Shown here: one piece after another, positions 6,370 to 62,109 of the stretch
Position numbering within the stretch: the first letter of the stretch is position 1
Layout of the letters: each line of letters opens with the position of its first letter
DNA from: Mesorhizobium sp. 131-2-1
Lineage (GTDB): Bacteria > Pseudomonadota > Alphaproteobacteria > Rhizobiales > Rhizobiaceae
Assembly: GCF_016756535.1 (NCBI RefSeq)
Contig: NZ_AP023247.1
Location: forward strand, 6,076,501-6,140,500
DNA length: 64,000 bases
Direction of reading: 5' to 3'
Position numbers and translations under genes: made by a program
The notes under the pieces: generated by a model
Seen by the model: the letters and a program-made list of their open reading frames with translations, nothing else
What the model was told of the DNA's origin: nothing
Database searches by the model: none

Positions 6370-7158
6370 ATGACGAAGCGCAAGCCACTTTCGACAGTCG
6401 TGGCCGAAAGCTTGTCCGAAAAGATCCGTTCCGGTCGGCTGCCTCCCGGCGCGCAACTGCCGACCGAGGCGGAGCTTTGCGCGGAGTACGACGTCAGCCG
6501 CACAGTTGTGCGGGAAGCGGTGGCGCGCTTGCGTTCCGACGGCATGGTGGTGCCGCAGCAGGGACGCGGCATGTTCGTCAGCGAGACGCCGGCGCCGCGC
6601 AATTTTTCGATACCGGACGAGGCGCTCAGGACCTTGCCCGAGACGATCGCCCTGCTCGAGCTCAGGCTGAGCGTCGAGGTGGAGTCGGCCGGGCTCTGCG
6701 CGGAACGGCGGAGCGACGCCGAGGCCGGTGAAATCCGCGCCCTGATGGAGCAGGTCGACGCACAACAGGCGGATCCGGCCGTCGTCCAGATCCACTACGA
6801 CTATGATTTCCATCTGGCGATCGCCAAGGCCGCGCGCAACGAATTCATCCACGGCTTCCTGGCCTATCTCCGGCCGATGATCGTGCCGCGCTTCCAGCTC
6901 GGCTATGTGGTCGAACCAGCGCTCAAGGACAGCTACTACGCGCGCATCCACAACGAGCACAAGACAATCGTCGATGCCATCGAAAGGCAGGACGGCCGCG
7001 CCGCCCGCCAGGCCATGCGCAAGCACCTGCACAACAGTCTCGGCCGGGTGCGCGCGCTCGCCCGTGCCTCGGGCGTCGAGGCGACGGAGGCCGAGCAGAA
7101 GGCGGCCGCGGCCTCGCTGTTCACCGAGATGAACAAGCCCGCGCCGACAGCCGGATAG
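6370..7158 (+). CDS. GntR family transcriptional regulator, FadR/FCD type
   Basis: A 262-residue protein. The N-terminal winged helix is clear (LPPGAQLPTEAELCAEYDVSRTVVREAVARL by key residues, about 20-60). It is followed by an all-helical FCD effector domain with the metal-ligand pattern of the family (D...H in YDYDFHLAIAKAARN, then HNEHKTIVDAIE). The start at ATG 6370 is chosen because GGAGGGG lies 5-10 bases upstream; a longer frame to 6322 lacks a ribosome site. It probably controls this catabolic region and itself through the palindrome at 5556-5574. The ligand is probably an organic acid, but this is inference. Confidence 0.9.
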   Translation: MTKRKPLSTVVAESLSEKIRSGRLPPGAQLPTEAELCAEYDVSRTVVREAVARLRSDGMVVPQQGRGMFVSETPAPRNFSIPDEALRTLPETIALLELRLSVEVESAGLCAERRSDAEAGEIRALMEQVDAQQADPAVVQIHYDYDFHLAIAKAARNEFIHGFLAYLRPMIVPRFQLGYVVEPALKDSYYARIHNEHKTIVDAIERQDGRAARQAMRKHLHNSLGRVRALARASGVEATEAEQKAAAASLFTEMNKPAPTAG

Positions 7159-7330
7159 GCTCCGCCGACTTCGACGCGGTCCGCATTCGTCGAGCACGGC
7201 CAGCCGGGCGTTCGCGAAAGCCATTTTTTTGCTCGACCGGCGGCCGAAAGCCCAAGTCCACACGCCGAAAGCTTTTCTTTGCCCAGGTTTGCAGCTTTCG
7301 TGGCCGCGCAGGCGTGCTGGAACATTCCAG

Positions 7331-7372
7331 CAGCCAAAAAGGCTTTCGAAAGTTTATCTTTCCTTTTTGCTG
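7331..7372. repeat. A/T-rich inverted repeat between gntR and SDR genes
   Basis: Arms CAGC-c-AAAAAGG and CCTTTTTGCTG pair over 11 bases with one bulged base, and a smaller AAAG/CTTT pair lies inside. It is in the 280-bp gap after gntR, which contains no gene but several GAAAGC/GCTTTC elements. It could be a transcription terminator (it ends in a T run) or an operator for the next gene. Confidence 0.35.
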
Positions 7373-7438
7373 GTTTTCTTGGTTTCGCGGCATCGGTCGA
7401 AGCCGCACACTGGAAGCCAGGCAATCGGGGAAGCCCAG

Positions 7439-8161
7439 GTGACGACAGCCTTCATCACAGGTGCGACGAGCGGCATAGGGCGGGCCATCGCGGTCGCGTT
7501 GAGCGACGCGGGTTACGACGTCTATGCCGTCGGGCGCAGCCAGGCCGCGCTCAAGGAACTGCAGGCCGAGCGGCCCGGCATCGTGCCGATTGCCGTCGAC
7601 GTTACCGACCGCGAGGCGCTGGAATCGGTGGTGGCGGATCTCACCATCGACGTGCTGATCAACAATGCCGGGATCATGCCGCCGCTCGGCAATTTCGCCG
7701 ACATGAAGATCGCCGACATCGACACCGCGCTGGAGGTGAACGTCAGCGCCGCGATCCTGCTTTCCCGCCTCGTCGTGCCGCAGATGCGCGAGCGGCAGTC
7801 TGGGCACATTCTGTTCACCGGCTCCTCCGCCGGCCATGCGGCCTTCCCCAACGTCGCCGTCTATTCCGCCACCAAGGCGGCGATCGCCGGCTTTGCCGCC
7901 GCACTGCGCGCCGACCTGTCTCAATACGGCATACGCGTCACCGAGATCGTGCCCGGCCGCGTCGAGACGCAGCTCTACAAGGACATACTCGACGCCGAGA
8001 CGCGGGCGGCCATGTATGCCGGCAATGCCGCCGTGCAGCCGGACGACGTGGCCAAAATGGTCGTCACCCTGCTCGGCCTGCCGGCATGGGCCGACGTGAC
8101 CCGCTTCGACATCATGCCGACCCGGCCGACGAGCCCAAGCGGCAGCAAGCAAGGAAAATAG
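7439..8161 (+). CDS. Short-chain dehydrogenase/reductase (SDR)
   Basis: A 240-residue classical SDR: cofactor motif [12 protein letters not shown] at the N-terminus, NNAGIMPP, catalytic SS in FTGSSAG, and Tyr142-x3-Lys146 in YSATK. GTG 7439 is chosen as the start because it places the Rossmann beta strand at residue 3, as is usual; an open frame back to 7229 encodes nothing SDR-like. The ribosome site is weak (GGGGAAG). The stop is 1 bp before the next SDR, so the two are co-transcribed. It resembles SDRs that oxidise hydroxy acids such as serine or 3-hydroxy acids, but the substrate cannot be set. Confidence 0.88.
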
Positions 8162-29704: not shown

Positions 29705-29780
<76 letters not shown>

Positions 29781-29927
29781 TCCCCTCTTCTCCCGACAGT
29801 CCCTTTCGCCGAAGCTTCTACTCTCCTGTCTCGGCAACTAGCTGAAATACTTACTGATTTCGCTGCCCAAAGCGCGGATGGTCGGGTTTCGTGGAATTTC
29901 GGCGCAGTTGGTCCAACGAGGCGGGGG

Positions 29928-29948
29928 GCTGGTATTTTCGCTGGTATT
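29928..29948. repeat. Direct repeat just before the integrase (possible integrase arm sites)
   Basis: GCTGGTATT occurs at 29928-29936 and again at 29940-29948, with a related GATGGTATC at 29959. The 212-bp stretch between tRNA-Phe and the integrase has no gene. Short direct repeats between att core and int are typical of integrase arm-binding sites, so this role is plausible but unproven. Confidence 0.35.
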
Positions 29949-29992
29949 GGAGATCCTGATGGTATCGATGCAGCCAAATGGAGGTCCCGAAA

Positions 29993-31303
29993 ATGGCTCT
30001 TTCCGACGTAAAATGCCGTAATGCCCGACCCGCTTCCAAGCTCGTGAAATTGTCTGACGGTGGCGGGCTCCAGCTTTGGGTGCAGCCTACCGGATCTCGC
30101 CTATGGCGCCTCGCCTATCGTTTTGGCGGCAAGCAGAAGCTTCTGGCGTTGGGCAGCTATCCCCTCATCTCCCTCGCTGAGGCACGCGAGGCGCGCGATA
30201 CCGCCAAACGTCTCCTCCTACGTGGCATCGACCCCGCACAGGAGCGTAAGTCGCAAAAGGCTTCGGCGGAGGACACCTTTCGCTCAATCGCGGAGGACTA
30301 TGTCGACAAGCTGAAGAAGGAGGGACGTGCCGACCGGACCATCACCAAGGTCAAATGGCTGCTCGACTTTGCCTATCCAACGTTTGGGGACAAAAGCGTT
30401 CGGGAGATCGATCCGGCCACAATTCTTGCCGCTCTCCGCAGCGTGGAGGTTCGTGGTCGATACGAGTCGGCCAGGCGAATGCGCTCCACCATCGGCAGCG
30501 TGTTTCGATATGCAATCGCAACCGCACGCGCCGATGTAGATCCGACGATCGCCCTGAGGGGCTCACTCGTCGGTCCGACGGTCACGCCCCGTGCCGCGGT
30601 TACCGATCCTAAGGCCTTGGGAGGCTTGCTGAGGGCGATTAATGCATTTGACGGACAGCCTACAACCCGAGCCGCTCTGAAGCTGATGGCCCTGCTATTT
30701 CCCCGCCCCGGCGAGCTGCGCGCGGCCGGATGGGACGAGTTCGATTTCGAAAGCTCGGTGTGGAGCATCCCTGAAGGACGCATGAAGATGCGACGGCCGC
30801 ACCGCGTACCTCTTTCCACGCAGGCCGTCAGCGTCCTGACCTCACTTAGAGAAATCTCTGGTGGTGGATCGCTGTTGTTTCCTAGTGTTCGATCGGGTTC
30901 GCGTCCGATTTCCGACAACACGCTTAACGCCGCCCTTCGCCGTATGGGCTATGGCAAAGAAGAAGCTACCGCGCACGGCTTTCGAGCAACGGCATCAACT
31001 CTGCTAAACGAATGCGGCAAGTGGCACCCGGACGCCGTAGAGCGGCAGCTGGCCCACATTGAGAACAACGACGTTCGGCGCGCCTATGCCCGGGCAGAGC
31101 ACTGGGAAGAGCGCGTCAGGATGATGCAATGGTGGGCCGATTATCTGGATGAACTCGAGAGCAAAAACTCGCGGGTGGTCTCAATCGGGGGACGCGAGGC
31201 AAGCCTGCTGTCCATACATCCTCGCGAGGGTCTAGTTTGGAAGCCAACAGCGACGGTTCGCCAAACGACGAGACGAACCTCCAATCTCCGAAAATCACAC
31301 TGA
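29993..31303 (+). CDS. intS: P4-family tyrosine site-specific integrase (IntS-like)
   Basis: A 436-residue protein. N-terminal DUF4102 arm-binding domain (about 1-90, LSDGGGLQLWVQPTGSRLW, RFGGKQKLLALGSYP), core-binding domain about 100-190, then the catalytic domain with Arg in PGELRAAGWDEF, HGFRATASTLLNE (HxxR) and Tyr in DVRRAYARAEHW. Start ATG 29993 has GGAGG eight bases upstream. Its place 212 bp from tRNA-Phe in the same direction matches intS of ICEMlSym-type elements. A degraded relative of its C-terminal half is at 42047-42554. The final ~45 residues are a poorly conserved-looking tail. Confidence 0.93.
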   Translation: MALSDVKCRNARPASKLVKLSDGGGLQLWVQPTGSRLWRLAYRFGGKQKLLALGSYPLISLAEAREARDTAKRLLLRGIDPAQERKSQKASAEDTFRSIAEDYVDKLKKEGRADRTITKVKWLLDFAYPTFGDKSVREIDPATILAALRSVEVRGRYESARRMRSTIGSVFRYAIATARADVDPTIALRGSLVGPTVTPRAAVTDPKALGGLLRAINAFDGQPTTRAALKLMALLFPRPGELRAAGWDEFDFESSVWSIPEGRMKMRRPHRVPLSTQAVSVLTSLREISGGGSLLFPSVRSGSRPISDNTLNAALRRMGYGKEEATAHGFRATASTLLNECGKWHPDAVERQLAHIENNDVRRAYARAEHWEERVRMMQWWADYLDELESKNSRVVSIGGREASLLSIHPREGLVWKPTATVRQTTRRTSNLRKSH

Positions 31304-33857: not shown

Positions 33858-34727
33858 TCAGCCGGCAGCGCCGTGAGGCTCGCGAACTTGCATCTCCACT
33901 TGCAAGCCGGCGGCAGCAGCCATGTTGACCAGTGCGTCGAGGCCGAACAGGTCGACTTTGCCGCGGGTAAGGTCTGAGATCCGCGGCTGGGTCACCCCAA
34001 AGACTTTGGCCGCTTGAGACTGACTTAAATGCGTGCGGGAAATATGCTCTTTGAGCGCCGTCATGAGCACCGCGCGTAACTTTGCGCTCTCGCTCTGTTG
34101 CGGGCTCGGCTCGGCAGGTGCCGCCGGCTCCAGATCCTTCACCGGGCCTGCAGACGATTCGCTATTCGCACCGATGTCCAGCAAGAATTGCTCGTTGGCG
34201 ATACTGGCGATTTTCGCGGTGAGGCCGATCTTCTCTTCCGCCTTTGCGCGAGCATGATCCGACATGAAGGCGAGAAGGCGCTCCAAGCCACCCTTGTCCG
34301 ATACGGTTACAAAATCCTTGTTCTTGTTCACGAAGACCACGGACTTCTTCTTTTCTCGAAGAAGCTCGATGACATTGCTTAGTGTGCCGGTGCTTTTGCA
34401 ATCCCAGACCATGAGGCCATAGTCGCTGTTGCGCGCCATCTCCAGGTCTTTGGCGGTAAAATAGGCGCGCGTGCCAGCCTTCGCCTTCGAGACGACCCTG
34501 TGGACCGGCCATTCTGCGACATTGTTCCGGGGCGAATCGCCGGTGCAATACACAGTCACCTTTCTGGCTTGGTACTGCTGGAGGCATTCTTGAATTGAGG
34601 TATCGGCACCATCGGCATCTCCGACCACGACGTCGAAGTCTGAAGATACGATCTTGTTGATCCTATCCGCCACCTTCTCATGCAGGCGACTGATGGAGAT
34701 TGATCCGGCGATGAAGACAGTGGTCAT
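33858..34727 (-). CDS. SLOG-like (DUF2493/YspA-type) nucleotide-binding domain fused to an XRE-type HTH
   Basis: A 289-residue protein. Residues 1-150 have a Rossmann-like fold with TVFIAGSISISRL, VVVGDADGADTSIQECL (GxxxGAD of YspA-type SLOG proteins) and GLMVWDCKSTGTLSNVIELL. A linker (160-220) rich in Pro/Ala/Ser follows. Residues 225-285 form an XRE/HigA2-type helix-turn-helix (LSQSQAAKVFGVTQPRISDLTRG). The start ATG 34727 lies 4 bp after the stop of the phosphoribosyltransferase gene, so they form an operon. A ligand-sensing repressor is the simplest idea: SLOG binds a nucleotide-derived ligand and the HTH binds DNA. This is inferred. Confidence 0.72.
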   Translation of the reverse strand: MTTVFIAGSISISRLHEKVADRINKIVSSDFDVVVGDADGADTSIQECLQQYQARKVTVYCTGDSPRNNVAEWPVHRVVSKAKAGTRAYFTAKDLEMARNSDYGLMVWDCKSTGTLSNVIELLREKKKSVVFVNKNKDFVTVSDKGGLERLLAFMSDHARAKAEEKIGLTAKIASIANEQFLLDIGANSESSAGPVKDLEPAAPAEPSPQQSESAKLRAVLMTALKEHISRTHLSQSQAAKVFGVTQPRISDLTRGKVDLFGLDALVNMAAAAGLQVEMQVREPHGAAG

Positions 34728-34731
34728 GGCA

Positions 34732-35322
34732 TTACTTCCATGTGATCGAAGCGGCGTAGATATGGTTGATTTTCTTGTACGTGCGCAGCGTTTTGCAGAC
34801 GGCGTCCATCGTGGCGCCCGTGTCGAAAAGGTCATCAAGGACAAGCGCGTTCCAACACCCTTCGTTGGTGATGGACGGGTTGATGCTGAACCGTCCCTCC
34901 AATGCGGCGTCCTTAGCCTCGCGGCCATGCAGATTCTTGAGCTGCGGGCTACCTTCCGGCGCTGGCGCCTTGACGATGATATCATCGAACACCGGCGTTT
35001 TCGTCAGTTTGCCGAGTTCGTTGGCGATCTCATTGACCGGCTGGCGCGCGCGCACCGTGGAGGCCGGCATCGGGATAATAAGGCCAATCTTGCCGAACAA
35101 AGGCAGCAAGGATTGCTGCACTTGCGCTGCGAGCGCTTGCACCTGATTCCAATCGGCTCGATATTTAAGCTGGTATAACGCCTCGCCGGGCTCTGAGCGC
35201 GTCGTGTCAAATCGAGGGTGGCCGTATTCGTCGTCGCCCAGGTAGACGCTCGACAGCGTATGCTTGTGCAGCGCGTAACCGAGATCCCAACTGCCTTCGA
35301 GCTTTCGAACCTGAACCTTCAT
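34732..35322 (-). CDS. ComF-like phosphoribosyltransferase
   Basis: A 196-residue type I phosphoribosyltransferase. The PRPP-binding loop is ALVLDDLFDTGATMDAV near residue 165, and LIIPMPASTVRARQPVNEIA near 85 resembles the ComF/GntX family, but the N-terminal zinc ribbon of ComF is absent. ATG 35322 follows an AAGGA site; the frame extends upstream without signals. It is first in a two-gene unit with the SLOG-HTH protein. A nucleotide-modifying enzyme beside a nucleotide-binding SLOG regulator suggests a signalling pair, an untested idea. Confidence 0.75.
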   Translation of the reverse strand: MKVQVRKLEGSWDLGYALHKHTLSSVYLGDDEYGHPRFDTTRSEPGEALYQLKYRADWNQVQALAAQVQQSLLPLFGKIGLIIPMPASTVRARQPVNEIANELGKLTKTPVFDDIIVKAPAPEGSPQLKNLHGREAKDAALEGRFSINPSITNEGCWNALVLDDLFDTGATMDAVCKTLRTYKKINHIYAASITWK

Positions 35323-35378
35323 GATGATGAGTATTCCTTGCAGGCCCTGGGAACGCCAACTGCGCGCCCACCTTATAT

Positions 35379-35394
35379 ATACAAAATATTGTAT
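35379..35394. promoter_or_regulatory. Palindromic operator candidate in the divergent promoter
   Basis: ATACAA-AATA-TTGTAT, a perfect 6-bp dyad with a 4-base centre, within an A/T-rich TATATATA tract. It lies between the phosphoribosyltransferase/SLOG-HTH pair (minus) and the helicase gene (plus). An XRE-type regulator encoded next door could bind it and control both directions. Confidence 0.5.
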
Positions 35395-35502
35395 GAGACG
35401 CAATGGCCCCGGGGCGGCTCGTCAATGGCATCCGGAGCTCACGGCGCCAGCGTAGTCACGTCGGGGATTGACCAATTGCGTAAGGTTGCATAATGTTGCC
35501 GT

Positions 35503-37557
35503 ATGTCACAGAATGATGCCCCCGATTTCCTGACCCTTGCCGAGGCCGCAGAGTATGTTGGCGTCTCGAAGGACACGCTTCGACGGTGGGATGCCTCGGG
35601 CAAGCTCAAGCCCGTGCGCCGTCCAGGGAGCGGCTATCGCTTCTATCGCCGGCCTGACCTTGAGCCCTTCCGCCTCGAGTACCGGCGCGCCGAACAGGCC
35701 GCCAACGAGCCGGACCATATGTTTCAGACCCTGACCGCAGATATTGAAGCGAACCCCAAGATACGCGAGCCGCAACAGGGCGCGCACCGGGCAGTGCGGA
35801 CCCACTTCGAAGCCTCGAACGAGCCGGTGATCCTGCAGATACCCGTCGGATGCGGAAAGACTGGCGTCATCGCGACATTGCCCTTCGGCGTCGCCAAAGG
35901 GCGCGCGCTCGTCATCACACCGAACCTGACGATACGGTCGGGTGTCGCGGAGTCGCTCGACATCAGCAACCCGAAGAATTTCTGGCGGCGGACAGGGGCG
36001 CTCCACGATTTTTCCGCGGGGCCATTCCGCGCTGTTTTGGATGGCGTTGATGCCAATCTCCACGACTGCAACGCAAGCCAGTTCGTCGTGACCAACATCC
36101 ACCAGTTGGCCAGCTCGGCCGATCGTTGGCTCCCGCAGTTTCCGCCGAACTATTTCGACATGATTATGATCGACGAGGGCCACCACAACGTGGCGCCGAG
36201 TTGGGCGAAGGTCTTCGACCGCTTTCCGAACGCCAAGGTCGTCAGCCTGACGGCGACGCCGTTCAGGGGTGACGGAACGCGGCCGGTCGGCAAGGTGATC
36301 TATCGCTACCCGTTCACTCGGGCGATGGTGAAGGGGTACATCAAGCAGATTCACTCTCGGAACGTCGCGCCGTCAGAGCTGTCCTTCACCTACCGTGACG
36401 ACATGAAGCGGCACACACTGGAAGAGGTGTTGGCCTTGCGAGAACATGCCTGGTTCCGGCGAGGTGTCGCGTTGGCGCCCGAGTGCAATCGTCACATCGT
36501 TGATGCCAGCATCAAATATCTCCAGGAGCTGCGAGAGCGCAGCGGTGTCCGTCACCAGATCATCGCCGTTGCCTGTTCCGTCGACCATGCCCGCCAAGTG
36601 CGAGGGCTGTACGAAGAGCGGGGCCTGAAGGCGGCCGAAATCTATGGTGAGATGGATCGTGAAAAGCAGGACGTCGTTCTTGCCGATCTGCGCAGCGGCA
36701 AGCTCGATTGTATCGTGCAGGTGCAGATGCTCGGGGAGGGCTTCGATCATCCGCCTCTGAGTGTCGCGGCCATCTTCCGGCCGTACGCGAGCTTGTCGCC
36801 TTACATCCAATTCGTCGGGCGCGTGATGCGCGTCGTCCACGAGGCGAAGCCGGACCACCCGGACAACCACGCATTCGTGGTCTCCCATGTGGGCTTGAAC
36901 ACCGACGCCCATTGGGACGATTTCCGGGAGCTCGACTTCGACGATCAGGCGATGGTCAAAAAGTGGCTGGAGGCCGGTGACGAGAATGGCGATGGCGACG
37001 GCTCAGGAGAGCCCCGTCGCTTCGATATCGGTATGCTGGTCGATAACGAGATCGTCGGCTCATTCATCAATCGGTCGTTCCTTGATCCCGAAGACGATCG
37101 CGTCCTCGAAGAAATGCTGGATCATGAGATCGGCGCAGGCCTCCGCCTGCGCGACGTCATCGCGAAGGACAAGCTCCGGGAGACGCTGCGCCGAAAGCAA
37201 GCGGAGCTGTCCCAGGTCAGCAGTTCCGGTGACCTTCCGGTGCAGCCGCAGGCGCGGCGGGTCGGCGCGCGCAAGCGGCTTTCCGAACGCACAGGCTCCG
37301 TGGTCGCCCGCATTCTCAAGGACCTGAAGCTCTCGCCCGCCGGGCGCGAGGTCGGCCAGCGAGACAAGACCGTCGCGGGGCGTGACAACCGGGCCGCCGT
37401 TACATCGCTGCTGAACAAGGCGATCAACGAACATCTCGGGATCAAGTCCGGGAGCCGCAAGGCACCCGACGCGGGCGACAATGAGGACGCTTTGGCTGCG
37501 CTCGATATGCTGGGAGACAACGTGCGCGACGCCCTGAAAGGGAAGAACGATGGCTAA
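35503..37557 (+). CDS. HTH-containing SF2 DNA helicase (restriction/DEAD-like)
   Basis: A 684-residue protein. Residues 8-55 form a MerR/excisionase-type HTH (LTLAEAAEYVGVSKDTLRRW then GYRFYRRPDLE). The SF2 core follows: Walker A IPVGCGKTG (Lys119), DEGH box 224-227, SLTATP near 248, then LGEGFDHP and QFVGRVMR (437-443) in the second RecA lobe. The C-terminal ~190 residues carry an acidic Asp/Gly stretch and a helical tail of unknown type. A DNA-binding head on an SF2 motor is unusual. It starts at ATG 35503 and overlaps the next gene by 8 bp. Confidence 0.85.
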   Translation: MSQNDAPDFLTLAEAAEYVGVSKDTLRRWDASGKLKPVRRPGSGYRFYRRPDLEPFRLEYRRAEQAANEPDHMFQTLTADIEANPKIREPQQGAHRAVRTHFEASNEPVILQIPVGCGKTGVIATLPFGVAKGRALVITPNLTIRSGVAESLDISNPKNFWRRTGALHDFSAGPFRAVLDGVDANLHDCNASQFVVTNIHQLASSADRWLPQFPPNYFDMIMIDEGHHNVAPSWAKVFDRFPNAKVVSLTATPFRGDGTRPVGKVIYRYPFTRAMVKGYIKQIHSRNVAPSELSFTYRDDMKRHTLEEVLALREHAWFRRGVALAPECNRHIVDASIKYLQELRERSGVRHQIIAVACSVDHARQVRGLYEERGLKAAEIYGEMDREKQDVVLADLRSGKLDCIVQVQMLGEGFDHPPLSVAAIFRPYASLSPYIQFVGRVMRVVHEAKPDHPDNHAFVVSHVGLNTDAHWDDFRELDFDDQAMVKKWLEAGDENGDGDGSGEPRRFDIGMLVDNEIVGSFINRSFLDPEDDRVLEEMLDHEIGAGLRLRDVIAKDKLRETLRRKQAELSQVSSSGDLPVQPQARRVGARKRLSERTGSVVARILKDLKLSPAGREVGQRDKTVAGRDNRAAVTSLLNKAINEHLGIKSGSRKAPDAGDNEDALAALDMLGDNVRDALKGKNDG

Positions 37558-37792
37558 AGTCAGGGACATTCTAATCGACGTGAGGATCGAGCAGGCGCAG
37601 CGCCAGCGCAAATGTCGAAGGAACAGCTCCCACGTCATCCCGAAGGGCGAGTGGTGTCTCGTTGTTCGAACCAACGCGACCAACGATGACTACAGCTACA
37701 GCCGAGACGCTGCGAAACCCATGCTCGATGCGGCTTGGGCGAAGCTCAGGACCATCTACGAAGGACTCGGAATGTCACCGCCTGATGGCTAA
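37550..37792 (+). CDS. Small Cys/His-containing protein, helicase-coupled
   Basis: An 80-residue protein overlapping the helicase stop by 8 bp. The segment KCRRNSSHVIPKGEWCLVV has a Cys-x6-His-x7-Cys spacing that could bind a metal or resemble a PARP/ADP-ribose-type zinc element. No family is recognised with confidence. Tight coupling to the helicase argues that it is real and works with it. Confidence 0.6.
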   Translation: MAKVRDILIDVRIEQAQRQRKCRRNSSHVIPKGEWCLVVRTNATNDDYSYSRDAAKPMLDAAWAKLRTIYEGLGMSPPDG

Positions 37793-37803
37793 AGGACGGG
37801 GGA

Positions 37804-38271
37804 ATGAGCGACGGATACAACTTTCAGCAACTCAAGGCCGCGATTTTAGCGCTGAGCCGGGCCACTGATTGGGAAGTGGCCAAAAAGGAGTGGCGCCTCG
37901 TCGAGATTTCCGAAGCCGACGAGCCCGAGACCTGTCTGTGCGGCCATTTCCCAATCATCGAGTTGTGCACCATCTCCAATGCTACGACCCGAAAATCGGT
38001 GGACGTAGGCAACGTCTGCGTGAAGCGGTTCTTGGGTTTCCGCTCCGATTTGATTTTCCAGTCTCTGAAGCGTGTCCGAGCCGACCCAGATAAGCCGATC
38101 GGCCCGGATGCCACCGCGTTCTTTCACGAACGCGGGGTCATCAACGATTGGGAGTATCAGTTCCAGCAGAGCACCATGCGGAAGCGCAACCTGTCTCAAC
38201 GGCAGTTGGCGACCAGGCGTTCGATAAATCAGAAAGTGATTGCGGCCGTGCGGCGTCGTGGTCTTTCATAA
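37804..38271 (+). CDS. Hypothetical protein with Cys cluster, helicase operon
   Basis: A 155-residue protein 11 bp after the previous gene. The stretch ETCLCGHFPIIELCTISN, followed by VDVGNVCVKRFLGF, gives Cys-x-Cys...Cys...Cys, a plausible zinc-ribbon of the VGNxC type. The C-terminus is basic (RKRNLSQRQLATRRS). No family name can be given. It forms a three-gene unit with the HTH-helicase and the 80-residue protein. Confidence 0.65.
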   Translation: MSDGYNFQQLKAAILALSRATDWEVAKKEWRLVEISEADEPETCLCGHFPIIELCTISNATTRKSVDVGNVCVKRFLGFRSDLIFQSLKRVRADPDKPIGPDATAFFHERGVINDWEYQFQQSTMRKRNLSQRQLATRRSINQKVIAAVRRRGLS

Positions 38272-42046: not shown

Positions 42047-42554
42047 CTGCGCCTACTGTTTCCCCGCCCCGGCGAGTTGCGAGCCGCCGGATAGGAAGAG
42101 TTCGACTTCAAAGGTTCGGTGTGGACCATCCCGGAAGCACGTATGAAAATGCGGCGGCGGCACCGCGTTGCACTTTCGAGGCAGGTCATCAAAATCCTGA
42201 CCGATCTCAGAGACATTTCCGGCAGCGAGGCGCTGCTGTTTCCAAGTGTGCGATCGGGTTCTCGTCCGATTTCCGACAATACACTTAACGCCGCCCTGCG
42301 TCGCATGGGTTACAGCAAGAAAGAAGCAACGGCTCACGGTTTCCGAGCAACGGCATCAACTCTGTTGAATGAATGCGGCAAGTGGCATCCAGACGCAAGA
42401 GAGACAGCTGACCCATATTGAAAAGAACGACGTTCGGCGCGCTTACGCCAGGGCAGAGCATTGGGAAAAGCGCGTCAGTATGATGCAGTGGTGGGCCGAT
42501 TATCTGGACGAAATTGGGTGCACGAAACCTGCAGTTGAACCCAAACAAGTGTAA
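42047..42554 (+). pseudogene. Degraded second integrase (C-terminal half, intS-like)
   Basis: The translation follows the catalytic domain of the integrase at 29993: LLFPRPGELRAAG, then TAG (42092-42094) where the intact copy has Trp, MKMRRRHRV, RPISDNTLNAALRRMGY, HGFRATASTLLNECGKWHPDA. A 2-base loss near 42400 then shifts the frame, and RQLTHIEKNDVRRAYARAEH...WWADYLDE continues in another frame. The N-terminal half is missing. It lies only 10 bp after the Fic gene and marks the edge of an older or tandem element. Confidence 0.9.
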
Positions 42555-59662: not shown

Positions 59663-62109
59663 GACGATTGCTCCTTGGTTGGTTGAGGGAATTGCTGGAG
59701 AAGCTCGGCCGCCCAATCGAGGCCGCGGGCGCCGAGGAAGCGAAAGACAAAGCTGTCCTGCCCGTGCTCGGACAGGACCCTGTCGATCAGGCTTTGCGCG
59801 GCTGGACCCGAGGCGCCGCAAAGTGCAAGCGCGATGGGGCCGAGCCCGAGCTCGAAGAGACGGTTGCCGCAGCGCGACTGCAAATAGTAGTGCCGCTTCG
59901 GCGTGGCCCGGGCGATCAGTTCGATCTGCCGGTTGTTGAGACCGAAGCGCTCATAGGCAGTCCGTGCCTGCGGTTCCACGGCACGATCATTGGGGAGAAA
60001 AATGCGCTGTGGGCAGCTCTCGATGATCGCCGGCGCTATTGCAGAGCCGGCGATGTCGGCAAGCGACTGCGTGGCGAAGATCACCGATACGTTCTTCTTT
60101 CGCAGCACCTTCAGCCATTCGCGGATGCGGGCAGCAAAAAGCGGATTGTCGAGATAGACCCAGGCCTCATCGAGCATGAGCAGCGTCGGTCGCCCGTCGA
60201 ACCGCTCCTCAAGGCGATGGAAGAGATAGGTGAGCACAGGCAGCACAGCGCTTTGGCTATGCATCAGCTCCTCGGTCTCGAAGCACTGCACATCCGACAA
60301 GGCCAGCCGATCGTCATCGGCATCGAGCAATCGGCCGAAGGGACCGTCGAGCGTGTAGGGCATTAAGGCGGACTTCAGTGCATTGGACTGAAGCAGGACC
60401 GACAGACCGGTCAGCGTGCGCTCCTGCGCCGGCGCGGTGGCGAGGCTGTTGAGCGCCGACCAGATCGCCTCCTTCACCTCCGGCGTGAGGGTGACGTTCT
60501 CATGGGCAATCAGGCCGGCGATCCATTCAGCTGCCCAGCTGCGCCTACCCTGATCACCGATATTGCGCAGTGGCTGGAAGGCAAGCGCACCGTCCGAACC
60601 CAAGACATGATGCTCTCCACCCATGGCGAGCGTTGCCGCGCGCGCCGAATTGCCTTTGTCGAAGACATAGACCTGCGCGCCGGCATAGCGACGAAACTGC
60701 AGGGCGATCAGGGCAAGCAGCACCGATTTTCCGGCGCCGGTCGGTCCAACGATCAGCATGTGGCCGACATCTTCGACATGGGAAGAAAGCCGGAACGGAG
60801 TCGACCCGCTGGTTTCGGCGATGAGGAGCGGCGGGGCCTCTCGTCCAGTGACTCCAGCCAGATGCTCGTTCGCCGCAGGACCGGCCCACACCGAGGAAAG
60901 CGGCATGAGATGGGCAAGGTTCAGCGTGTGAACGAGCGGCTGACGAACGTTGGCATAGACATGACCCGGCAGCGAGCCGAGCCAGGCTTCGACCGCATTG
61001 ACGCTTTCGCGGATGGTGGTGAACCCGAGCCCATTGATGATGCGCTCGACCGCGCGAAGTTTCTCAGCGGCGGCTTGGCGATCCTCGTCCCATACCGTCA
61101 CCGTTGCAGTGAGATACCCGAAGCCGACATGATCGCCGCCCAACGCCTGAAGTGCTTCATCGGCGTCGAGCGCCTTATTGTCGGCGTCGCTGTCGACGAG
61201 CGGAACGGGTTCGTTGCTTACAACCTCGCGCAGGATTGCGACGATCGATTTGCGCTTGGCAAACCACTGCCGGCGCAAGCGGGTCAGCGTCTTGGTGGCC
61301 TCGGTCTTGTCGAGCGGAATGAAGCGCGTCATCCAGCGATAGGCGAAATCCTGATGATTGAGGGCATCGAGGATTCCGGGCCGGGTGAGGTTCGGAAAGC
61401 CGAGGATGGTAAGTGTGCGAAGATGTTGCTCACCCAGCATCGGCTCCAAGCCGCCGGTAAGCGGCACATCGACCAGGATGCCGTCCAGATACATTGGCAT
61501 TTCCGGCACGGCGACCGGATGGCGGCGGGTCGAGATCGTGTCGTGCAGGTATGTCAGCGTCTCGGCGTCATCGAGCGGACGCACTTCGGGCATGAAGCCC
61601 GACAGAAGATCCAGCACACGGTCGGTCTCGTCACGGAACCGCGCCATCTCCTGGCGCCAGTCTCTTTCGCCTTCTGAATGATGCGAGTCGACGAGCGCGC
61701 TTTCCGCCCGCGCCTGGGCGTCCGGTGGCGGCATGGACAGCAAGGTCAGGTGATAGCGGCTCTCGAAATGCGCGACCTTGCCTTCGAAGGCAGCACGCCG
61801 TTCTTCATCAACCAGCCATGACGCCGCGTCCGGGAAACGCGAGGACGGATAGCCCAGCGCTTCGATGCGCTCGGCCTCGAAAAACAATGTCCAGCCGGAG
61901 CCAAAGCGTCTAAGCGCATTGTTGGCCCGGGCGCAGATGCCGATGAGTTCGGCTTCGGTCGAGCTTTCCAGATCGGGCCCGCGAAACCGAAGAGTCCGCT
62001 GAACGCTGCCGTCCTTGTTGAGCACGATGCCGGGCGCCACCAGTGCTGCCCAGGGCAGATGGTCGGCAAGCCGGTCGGCCTTGCCGCGATATTCCGAAAG
62101 GTTCAGCAT
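59659..62109 (-). CDS. trbE: Conjugal transfer ATPase TrbE (VirB4-like)
   Basis: An 816-residue ATPase. MLNLSEYRGKADRLADHLPW is the usual N-terminus. Walker A is IVGPTGAGKSVL and Walker B is LLMLDEAWVYLDN; FATQSLADIAGSAI follows. It powers pilus assembly and transfer. ATG 62109 is favoured on family grounds; ATG 62118 is possible. It overlaps trbD by 7 bp. Confidence 0.96.
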   Translation of the reverse strand: MLNLSEYRGKADRLADHLPWAALVAPGIVLNKDGSVQRTLRFRGPDLESSTEAELIGICARANNALRRFGSGWTLFFEAERIEALGYPSSRFPDAASWLVDEERRAAFEGKVAHFESRYHLTLLSMPPPDAQARAESALVDSHHSEGERDWRQEMARFRDETDRVLDLLSGFMPEVRPLDDAETLTYLHDTISTRRHPVAVPEMPMYLDGILVDVPLTGGLEPMLGEQHLRTLTILGFPNLTRPGILDALNHQDFAYRWMTRFIPLDKTEATKTLTRLRRQWFAKRKSIVAILREVVSNEPVPLVDSDADNKALDADEALQALGGDHVGFGYLTATVTVWDEDRQAAAEKLRAVERIINGLGFTTIRESVNAVEAWLGSLPGHVYANVRQPLVHTLNLAHLMPLSSVWAGPAANEHLAGVTGREAPPLLIAETSGSTPFRLSSHVEDVGHMLIVGPTGAGKSVLLALIALQFRRYAGAQVYVFDKGNSARAATLAMGGEHHVLGSDGALAFQPLRNIGDQGRRSWAAEWIAGLIAHENVTLTPEVKEAIWSALNSLATAPAQERTLTGLSVLLQSNALKSALMPYTLDGPFGRLLDADDDRLALSDVQCFETEELMHSQSAVLPVLTYLFHRLEERFDGRPTLLMLDEAWVYLDNPLFAARIREWLKVLRKKNVSVIFATQSLADIAGSAIAPAIIESCPQRIFLPNDRAVEPQARTAYERFGLNNRQIELIARATPKRHYYLQSRCGNRLFELGLGPIALALCGASGPAAQSLIDRVLSEHGQDSFVFRFLGARGLDWAAELLQQFPQPTKEQSS

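Follow-up and report, generated by a model that had tools for sequence, protein, structure and literature searches.

The helicase locus described here lies on a stretch of 64,000 nucleotides of Mesorhizobium sp. 131-2-1 (contig NZ_AP023247.1, positions 6,076,501 to 6,140,500; the whole stretch is called the window) and consists of a superfamily 2 (SF2) helicase gene followed by two small genes. Parts of it recall several known systems. RadD (YejH) is an E. coli repair helicase of the same broad SF2 motor kind, with two zinc fingers at work behind its motor core; a C437A mutant failed to rescue UV sensitivity (PMC9049331), and RadD acts together with RecA (PMC8887467). BldC, a MerR-like regulator of 68 residues, binds 9-bp direct repeats head-to-tail (PMC5859096). 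Hachiman (HamAB) likewise comprises two genes, one of them for an SF2 helicase that may sense DNA, HamB being Ski2/Brr2-like (PMC12278908). In RqlH/RqlI (PsyrTA), RqlH combines a helicase and a phosphoribosyltransferase in one chain, RqlI combines a DprA region and a helix-turn-helix (HTH), and the two are toxin/antitoxin-like (PMC4670107).

The core unit of the present locus, as firmly indicated by gene order in its relatives, is an SF2 helicase with a zinc-finger-like small gene directly downstream. Repression of the helicase promoter by the HTH head of the helicase itself is the most likely function of the repeats found there, and both points belong to the firm parts of our reading. About half of our confidence was placed in the full reading, according to which the pair would be a mobile, self-repressed, two-subunit DNA-processing helicase that probably acts against invaders. 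Unlike in Hachiman, no HamA-like (DUF1837) nuclease was recognized, the small genes match no Pfam or PADLOC family, and the partner belongs to a tiny zinc-finger-like family. The preliminary description of this DNA had proposed a three-gene cassette of defence type instead, and was partly supported. The features of the locus are given below.

35503..37557, + strand: SF2 (RadD/XPB/ResIII-like) helicase, 684 residues (Pfam, NCBIfam and PDB sequence matches, PHROG 16, motif alignment)
35527..35673, + strand: N-terminal MerR/excisionase/BldC-like HTH head, residues 9-57 (Pfam and NCBIfam matches)
35758..36267, + strand: ResIII, RecA-like domain 1, with Walker A PVGCGKT and DEGHH (Pfam ResIII, 1.1e-21)
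36517..36834, + strand: Helicase_C, RecA-like domain 2, with motif VI QFVGRVMRV (Pfam, 1.6e-12)
37550..37792, + strand: 80-residue partner, probably belonging to a small zinc-finger-like family but eroded (C22 and H29 kept; S51 and A54 in place of the YCxxC pair of relatives)
37804..38271, + strand: 155-residue accessory protein, optional third gene (invariant C44, C46, C55 and C72)
35468..35473, + strand: TTGACC, putative -35-like element immediately 5' of the repeats
35476..35505, + strand: three 10-bp direct repeats (TTGCGTAAGG, TTGCATAATG, TTGCCGTATG), the proposed operator for the HTH of the helicase

The three open reading frames (ORFs) were as tightly coupled as had been claimed: the helicase and 80-residue genes overlapped by 8 bp (ATGGCTAA), and a gap of 11 bp preceded the 155-residue gene. 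No terminator was found downstream of the operon in the scan. At E 0.001, the 155-residue protein had 755 relatives and the 80-residue protein 115, so the small genes are not chance ORFs.

The helicase and its small partner

The pairing was assessed from both genes. With the helicase as the anchor, 24 loci other than the window were collected, namely 14 plasmid loci (picked for diversity among 40 listed of 261 records), nine that came out of the genome searches at class and order level, and a single IMG/VR contig (L045), which was found via the 80-residue protein and then again via the helicase. Near-copies occurred among them (L003/L004 and L005/L077). A gene of the small family started within ~70 bp of the helicase stop, mostly overlapping it, in 23 of the 24. 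A search with four small-protein queries gave 38 plasmid records with 39 places, many of the records being near-identical, such as the 5.9-kb enterobacterial plasmids; the second place in the record of Methylobacterium aquaticum, which was not listed, was taken as L075. The helicase was directly upstream in 38 of the 39 places, as judged by feature labels, by coordinates compared with the helicase plasmid matches, or by local tblastn. Four of these 38 were counted as decayed copies (three Zymomonas records, one of which was examined, and one from Erwinia). The exception was a Pseudonocardia locus (L100), where an IS630 transposase stood upstream instead. In Novosphingobium endophyticum (L013, found via the 155-residue protein and outside the 24), a transposase gene at ~6425-7591 parted the helicase gene from that of the small protein, both being present. 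The pair was recorded in Alpha- and Gammaproteobacteria and in Actinomycetota, and its smallest carriers were plasmids of 5.9 kb.

The homology of the small proteins across clades was examined with single-clade profiles against 3314 ORFs of 31 loci. A profile of the C-H-C-C group only matched the 80-residue gene of the window at 1.4e-13, and the profile of the window clade matched the C-H-C-C group at 4e-13 to 4e-5. Within the C-C-C-C group (L006, L009, L023, L061, L065 and L070), the latter profile matched L061 at 3.6e-4, and most others were not significant.

Relatives of the 80-residue protein showed either C...H...YCxxC or CxxC...CxxC, with C22 and G33 invariant in 23 sequences. In the alignment, the corresponding ligand set of the window protein was C22-H29-S51-A54, compared with C-H-C-C or C-C-C-C in the relatives. 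With the last two cysteines replaced by serine and alanine, two probable zinc ligands are lost from the window copy, which is probably a zinc-finger fold with an incomplete metal site. The gene itself was confirmed, and the Cys/His cluster that had been ascribed to it was weak (C22, H29, C36). An assignment to the PARP-type zinc fingers (zf-PARP, PF00645) was rejected: the window protein gave no match and one of the 23 family members matched at E 0.0092, which amounts to a resemblance. At E 0.1, neither small protein matched a model of Pfam, NCBIfam, PADLOC or PHROGs; no curated family was thus found for them in these collections, in agreement with the earlier remark that the combination was not recognized as a named system. 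Among the matches listed in a search of titles and abstracts of the open-licence literature there was no paper on the pair, and a search of PMC12839542 and PMC5512222 for selected terms showed nothing relevant.

Helicase motor and likeness to RadD

The claimed fusion of an HTH head to a helicase was confirmed by Pfam MerR (9.7e-11, above the cut-off), HTH_17 (3.8e-9) and the NCBIfam excise model (2.4e-9). The BldC model matched the head at 1.1e-5 with 25.2 bits, short of its cut-off of 77; therefore, the head is similar to BldC and is not a BldC. Motifs I, II, III, V and VI of SF2 were intact (PvGcGK, DE.HH, aTP.R.D, LgEGfDh and QFvGR.mRv) in an alignment of 21 helicases, the outlier L074 included. 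The strongest family match was PHROG 16, 'DNA helicase' (7.1e-52, residues 82-481). The phage helicases of that family share the motor core, while the head and the tail of the window helicase differ; 832 phage records matched the window helicase and none covered 80% of it.

A serious rival to our reading, possible though on balance doubtful, is that the locus encodes a RadD-like or phage-type helicase of recombination, repair or replication that serves the element or the host. The finger would then be a separate subunit, and the pair would accelerate strand exchange or the repair of forks, for instance once DNA has entered by conjugation. RadD was the best match of the window helicase both in NCBIfam (2.8e-22) and, by sequence, in PDB (3.6e-14, residues 338-445), the best match of all was to phage helicases, and the gene order of motor and finger mirrors the domain order of RadD. 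Additionally, conjugative or mobilizable plasmids are frequent among the carriers (6 of 14, 15 of 20, 4 of 7 and 2 of 4 small-gene records for the four queries). However, the NCBIfam match reached 78.7 bits against a cut-off of 720 for the RadD equivalog (NF053632), the profile of the small protein matched no RadD chain, and the relative L006 ranked the restriction-type helicase 7clg and XPB chains above RadD in the PDB sequence search. Residues 450-684 of the window helicase contained no cysteine, so CxxC zinc fingers behind the motor in the same chain are lacking. Unlike RadD, the locus has its zinc-finger-like part in a separate protein and an extra HTH at the N-terminus of the helicase.

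The distribution of the module likewise fits conflict better than housekeeping, as does the repeated company of defence-island genes. At a strict E of 1e-80 and with its own genome counted, the helicase was present in 1 of 41 near relatives, 6 of 397 genomes of the order and 5 of 385 of the class; a phylum-wide search gave 3 of 388 genomes, all of them already known. The module was sporadic, and copies more than 96% identical occurred in different genera.

Direct repeats and proposed mode of action

The last of the three repeats of the window overlapped the start codon of the helicase. Repeats were scored at 23 loci, some of them near-identical, as period-10 self-similarity within the last 60 bp, with 1000 shuffles each. 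A score of at least 12 of 20 (p <0.05) was reached by 13 of 14 HTH-bearing helicases compared with 1 of 9 HTH-less ones (Fisher p 0.00016, relatedness of the loci being ignored), and among 278 control upstream regions five reached 12 and none reached 13. About four repeat families were distinguished by eye: the window type, the type of L006, L009, L023 and L065, that of L061 and that of L070. In the HTH-bearing helicases the phased repeats stood on the start codon or immediately 5' of it. The repeat sequences were lineage-specific, and in the more distant window-type loci the flanks beyond the repeats differed. TTGAC stood at the -35-like place in the window and in all 13 window-type relatives shown. 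As in BldC, a MerR-like winged HTH would meet direct repeats whose length is close to one helical turn; unlike BldC, which is a free regulator of 9-bp repeats, the head forms part of a helicase, the repeats are of 10 bp and their binding is predicted. It was previously suggested that the head guides the helicase to a sequence or structure. Self-control explains the head better, given the repeats at its own promoter, and both may apply.

The repeats could also be read as iterons, the helicase then being a maintenance factor of the plasmid or island in replication or partition. Direct repeats do adjoin the gene of a DNA-binding protein, and the pair takes up ~2 kb of a 5.9-kb plasmid. Nevertheless, this was the least probable of the explanations considered, and a very improbable one: allowing up to 3 mismatches, no second copy of the array turned up in the 7.1-Mb genome, and the one present lies at the helicase promoter; eight of the nine HTH-less members had no comparable repeat, and four annotated carrier plasmids had a replication gene of their own. 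The iteron reading was therefore disfavoured.

Returning to the self-repressed helicase, we proposed that its head binds the repeats head-to-tail like BldC and holds expression of the operon down. The motor and its partner would load on abnormal DNA, such as ends, forks or intermediates of recombination, in the manner of RadD, whose zinc fingers are in its own chain. When the helicase is drawn onto invader or damaged DNA, the operator would be emptied and expression raised, and foreign DNA would be hampered as it enters or replicates, with help from the 155-residue protein where present. The simplest model would be a two-subunit cousin of RadD, a motor with a separate finger, that is held low by its own head. 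If true, this would be an undescribed two-gene helicase module ranging from islands of Rhizobiales to 5.9-kb enterobacterial plasmids, with a helicase that controls its own promoter. A bolder version is tentative: the helicase may be both its own repressor and an alarm, bound to the three repeats by its BldC-like head until recruitment to foreign or broken DNA, whose structure the zinc-finger subunit reads, strips it from them to switch on a widespread, unnamed two-gene defence module, to which the 155-residue protein would be an add-on shared with unrelated systems.

Defence as the outcome for the pair stands at about an even chance and rests on neighbourhood and sporadic spread. It is favoured by that spread, by a third gene common to defence islands and by restriction or Shedu genes near the pair in 3 of 14 plasmid loci (L006, L070 and L076, by annotation).

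Several observations weigh against the reading as a whole. No nuclease or other effector was evident in the small proteins by family match, and no conserved catalytic set was found in the helicase tail in the alignment of 21. PADLOC (2023) matches to the window helicase and seven relatives were confined to the motor core and HTH head; there was no match for the two small proteins of the window or for three relatives of the 80-residue protein. The match to PHROG 16 fits replication or recombination equally well, and the defence-type neighbours described below may be general to island genes. A Priestia locus (L074) was the sole one of the 24 without the small gene; given its very long branch in the tree, it may fall outside the helicase family. 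The C-C-C-C small proteins are tied to the family weakly, mainly by position and cysteine pattern. Of the repeat scores, the HTH-bearing Rhodococcus helicase L005 had 10 (p 0.22) and the HTH-less L071 had 12 (p 0.006). Start codons, and hence the scored stretches, were uncertain for the HTH-less L062, L066, L067 and L075, which weakens the HTH-less control. The promoter scan flagged no sigma-70 promoter upstream of the helicase, so the -35-like element is given as putative.

The optional third gene and the island

The four cysteines of the 155-residue protein were invariant in 26 aligned sequences, the window included, which bears out the CxC...C...C cluster described before. A fixed three-gene cassette was rejected. 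The 155-residue gene was present in one of the 24 helicase-anchored loci (L006; searched with 26 sequences), and 6 of the 28 genome loci found via the 155-residue protein carried the helicase (L010-L013, L023 and L034, the gene being truncated in L034); L036 had only a distant helicase of 22% identity on the opposite strand. Rare co-occurrence, which formed half of the refutation test in the preliminary description, was thus what was found, and the cassette gives way to a conserved pair with an optional third gene. In a tree of 21 helicase cores, the carriers fell into two separate clades, each with near relatives free of the gene. The gene was therefore most simply recruited twice, repeated loss being the alternative. 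In both carrier clades it started 11-15 bp behind the small partner.

The 155-residue gene was also recorded without this helicase: in a Gabija operon it followed GajB by 2 bp (L021), in L019 it came after an XhoI-type endonuclease, in L018 it ran divergently from Gabija, and in L030 it preceded a methyltransferase. In L032 it was divergent from a Gabija remnant, recognized by sequence clustering only. At helicase loci, Gabija came after it in L012, and Shedu stood two genes further on in L023 and, by annotation, in L006. The protein thus neighbours Gabija and restriction islands in several loci and itself matches no PADLOC model. The neighbours were scanned for defence models, 20 chosen ones singly and then 126 pooled ORFs; the pool was drawn from the 21 of 28 loci that were left once the six with the helicase and the short contig L028 had been set aside. 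At 1e-20, 134 PADLOC models were matched by the 126 ORFs compared with one by 105 control ORFs, which came from 16 unrelated stretches not matched for mobile DNA. The best 25 of the 134 were all redundant Gabija models with two members each, so few proteins carry the signal. Outside the named loci, most of the 20 neighbours had no notable defence model match. If the association is true, a promiscuous four-cysteine protein would perhaps aid several defence systems.

In Rts1 and other IncT-type plasmids, the protein was found among genes of no assigned function. In the Klebsiella and Rts1 conjugative plasmids (L007:6527-9937, L008:7845-9941), the gene stood behind that of a large protein for which Pfam gave no significant match, and preceded an unassigned protein of ~150 residues. 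In the available part of an Rts1 deletion study (PMC10838148), the homologue could not be mapped to the ORF numbers, and the study has no bearing either way. The Rts1 version had no match in the phage collection, and seven IMG/VR contigs encoded relatives of the 155-residue protein. In two Pedobacter loci (L033:6306-7799, L037:6545-7960), genes of one sequence cluster had relatives of the 155-residue protein directly behind them, the L037 copy matching PrimPol-type models. A DUF6119 protein lay directly 5' of the gene in Boseongicola (L020:6228-7952).

The window locus had been placed in the cargo zone of an integrative and conjugative element, which is plausible, and defence-type genes on mobile DNA were confirmed. 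On the left side, a tRNA-Phe (29705-29780) adjoined an integrase at 29978 (29705-31303 together); VirB4/TrbE-like matches lay at ~60943-61566, and a TraG-like gene ~0.5 kb past the end of the window. A second integrase remnant, 82% similar, was located on the right side at 42052-42512, an arrangement which suggests stacked insertions. Among the neighbours named earlier, DUF4238 and Fic were confirmed by Pfam; DUF3800 had no Pfam match with the start used, and the SLOG gene had no Pfam SLOG match, only its C-terminal HTH_37 being matched. The neighbouring module outside the core was as follows.

34732..35403, - strand: ComF-like phosphoribosyltransferase gene, divergent (real start possibly internal)
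33858..34727, - strand: gene following the phosphoribosyltransferase, with a SLOG-like N-terminus (by eye) and HTH_37 (1.7e-20; start taken from the ORF)
35379..35394, no strand: palindrome ATACAA-AATA-TTGTAT in the divergent promoter region (in 6 of 7 fetched loci with the phosphoribosyltransferase/HTH_37 operon)

These genes raise the question of a split RqlH/RqlI (PsyrTA)-type toxin-antitoxin defence made up of the helicase, the phosphoribosyltransferase and the SLOG/HTH protein. All three kinds of gene co-occur in the island; the phosphoribosyltransferase matched PADLOC PsyrT at 1.4e-6 (Pfam Pribosyltran 0.0016, below the cut-off), and the operon was linked in 7 of 8 fetched loci with a helicase at least 96% identical. 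It was seen in 7 of 30 fetched helicase loci and not found in the other 22 (<96% identity) or in L012, so the link is that of one recently spread cassette. Unlike RqlH/RqlI, the genes are separate and divided between two operons of opposite direction, and the link does not hold across the helicase family. Such a split system is most unlikely, and the self-repressed pair remains the preferred reading. The palindrome is a possible operator of the phosphoribosyltransferase/HTH_37 operon, and the divergent operon (33858-35403) is itself a possible stripped-down toxin-antitoxin pair of PsyrTA/ShosTA type.

Elsewhere, two Rhodococcus plasmids (L005, L077) encoded a very large helicase-type protein near the pair. 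The L005 version has an NPPY motif, which is typical of adenine methyltransferases.

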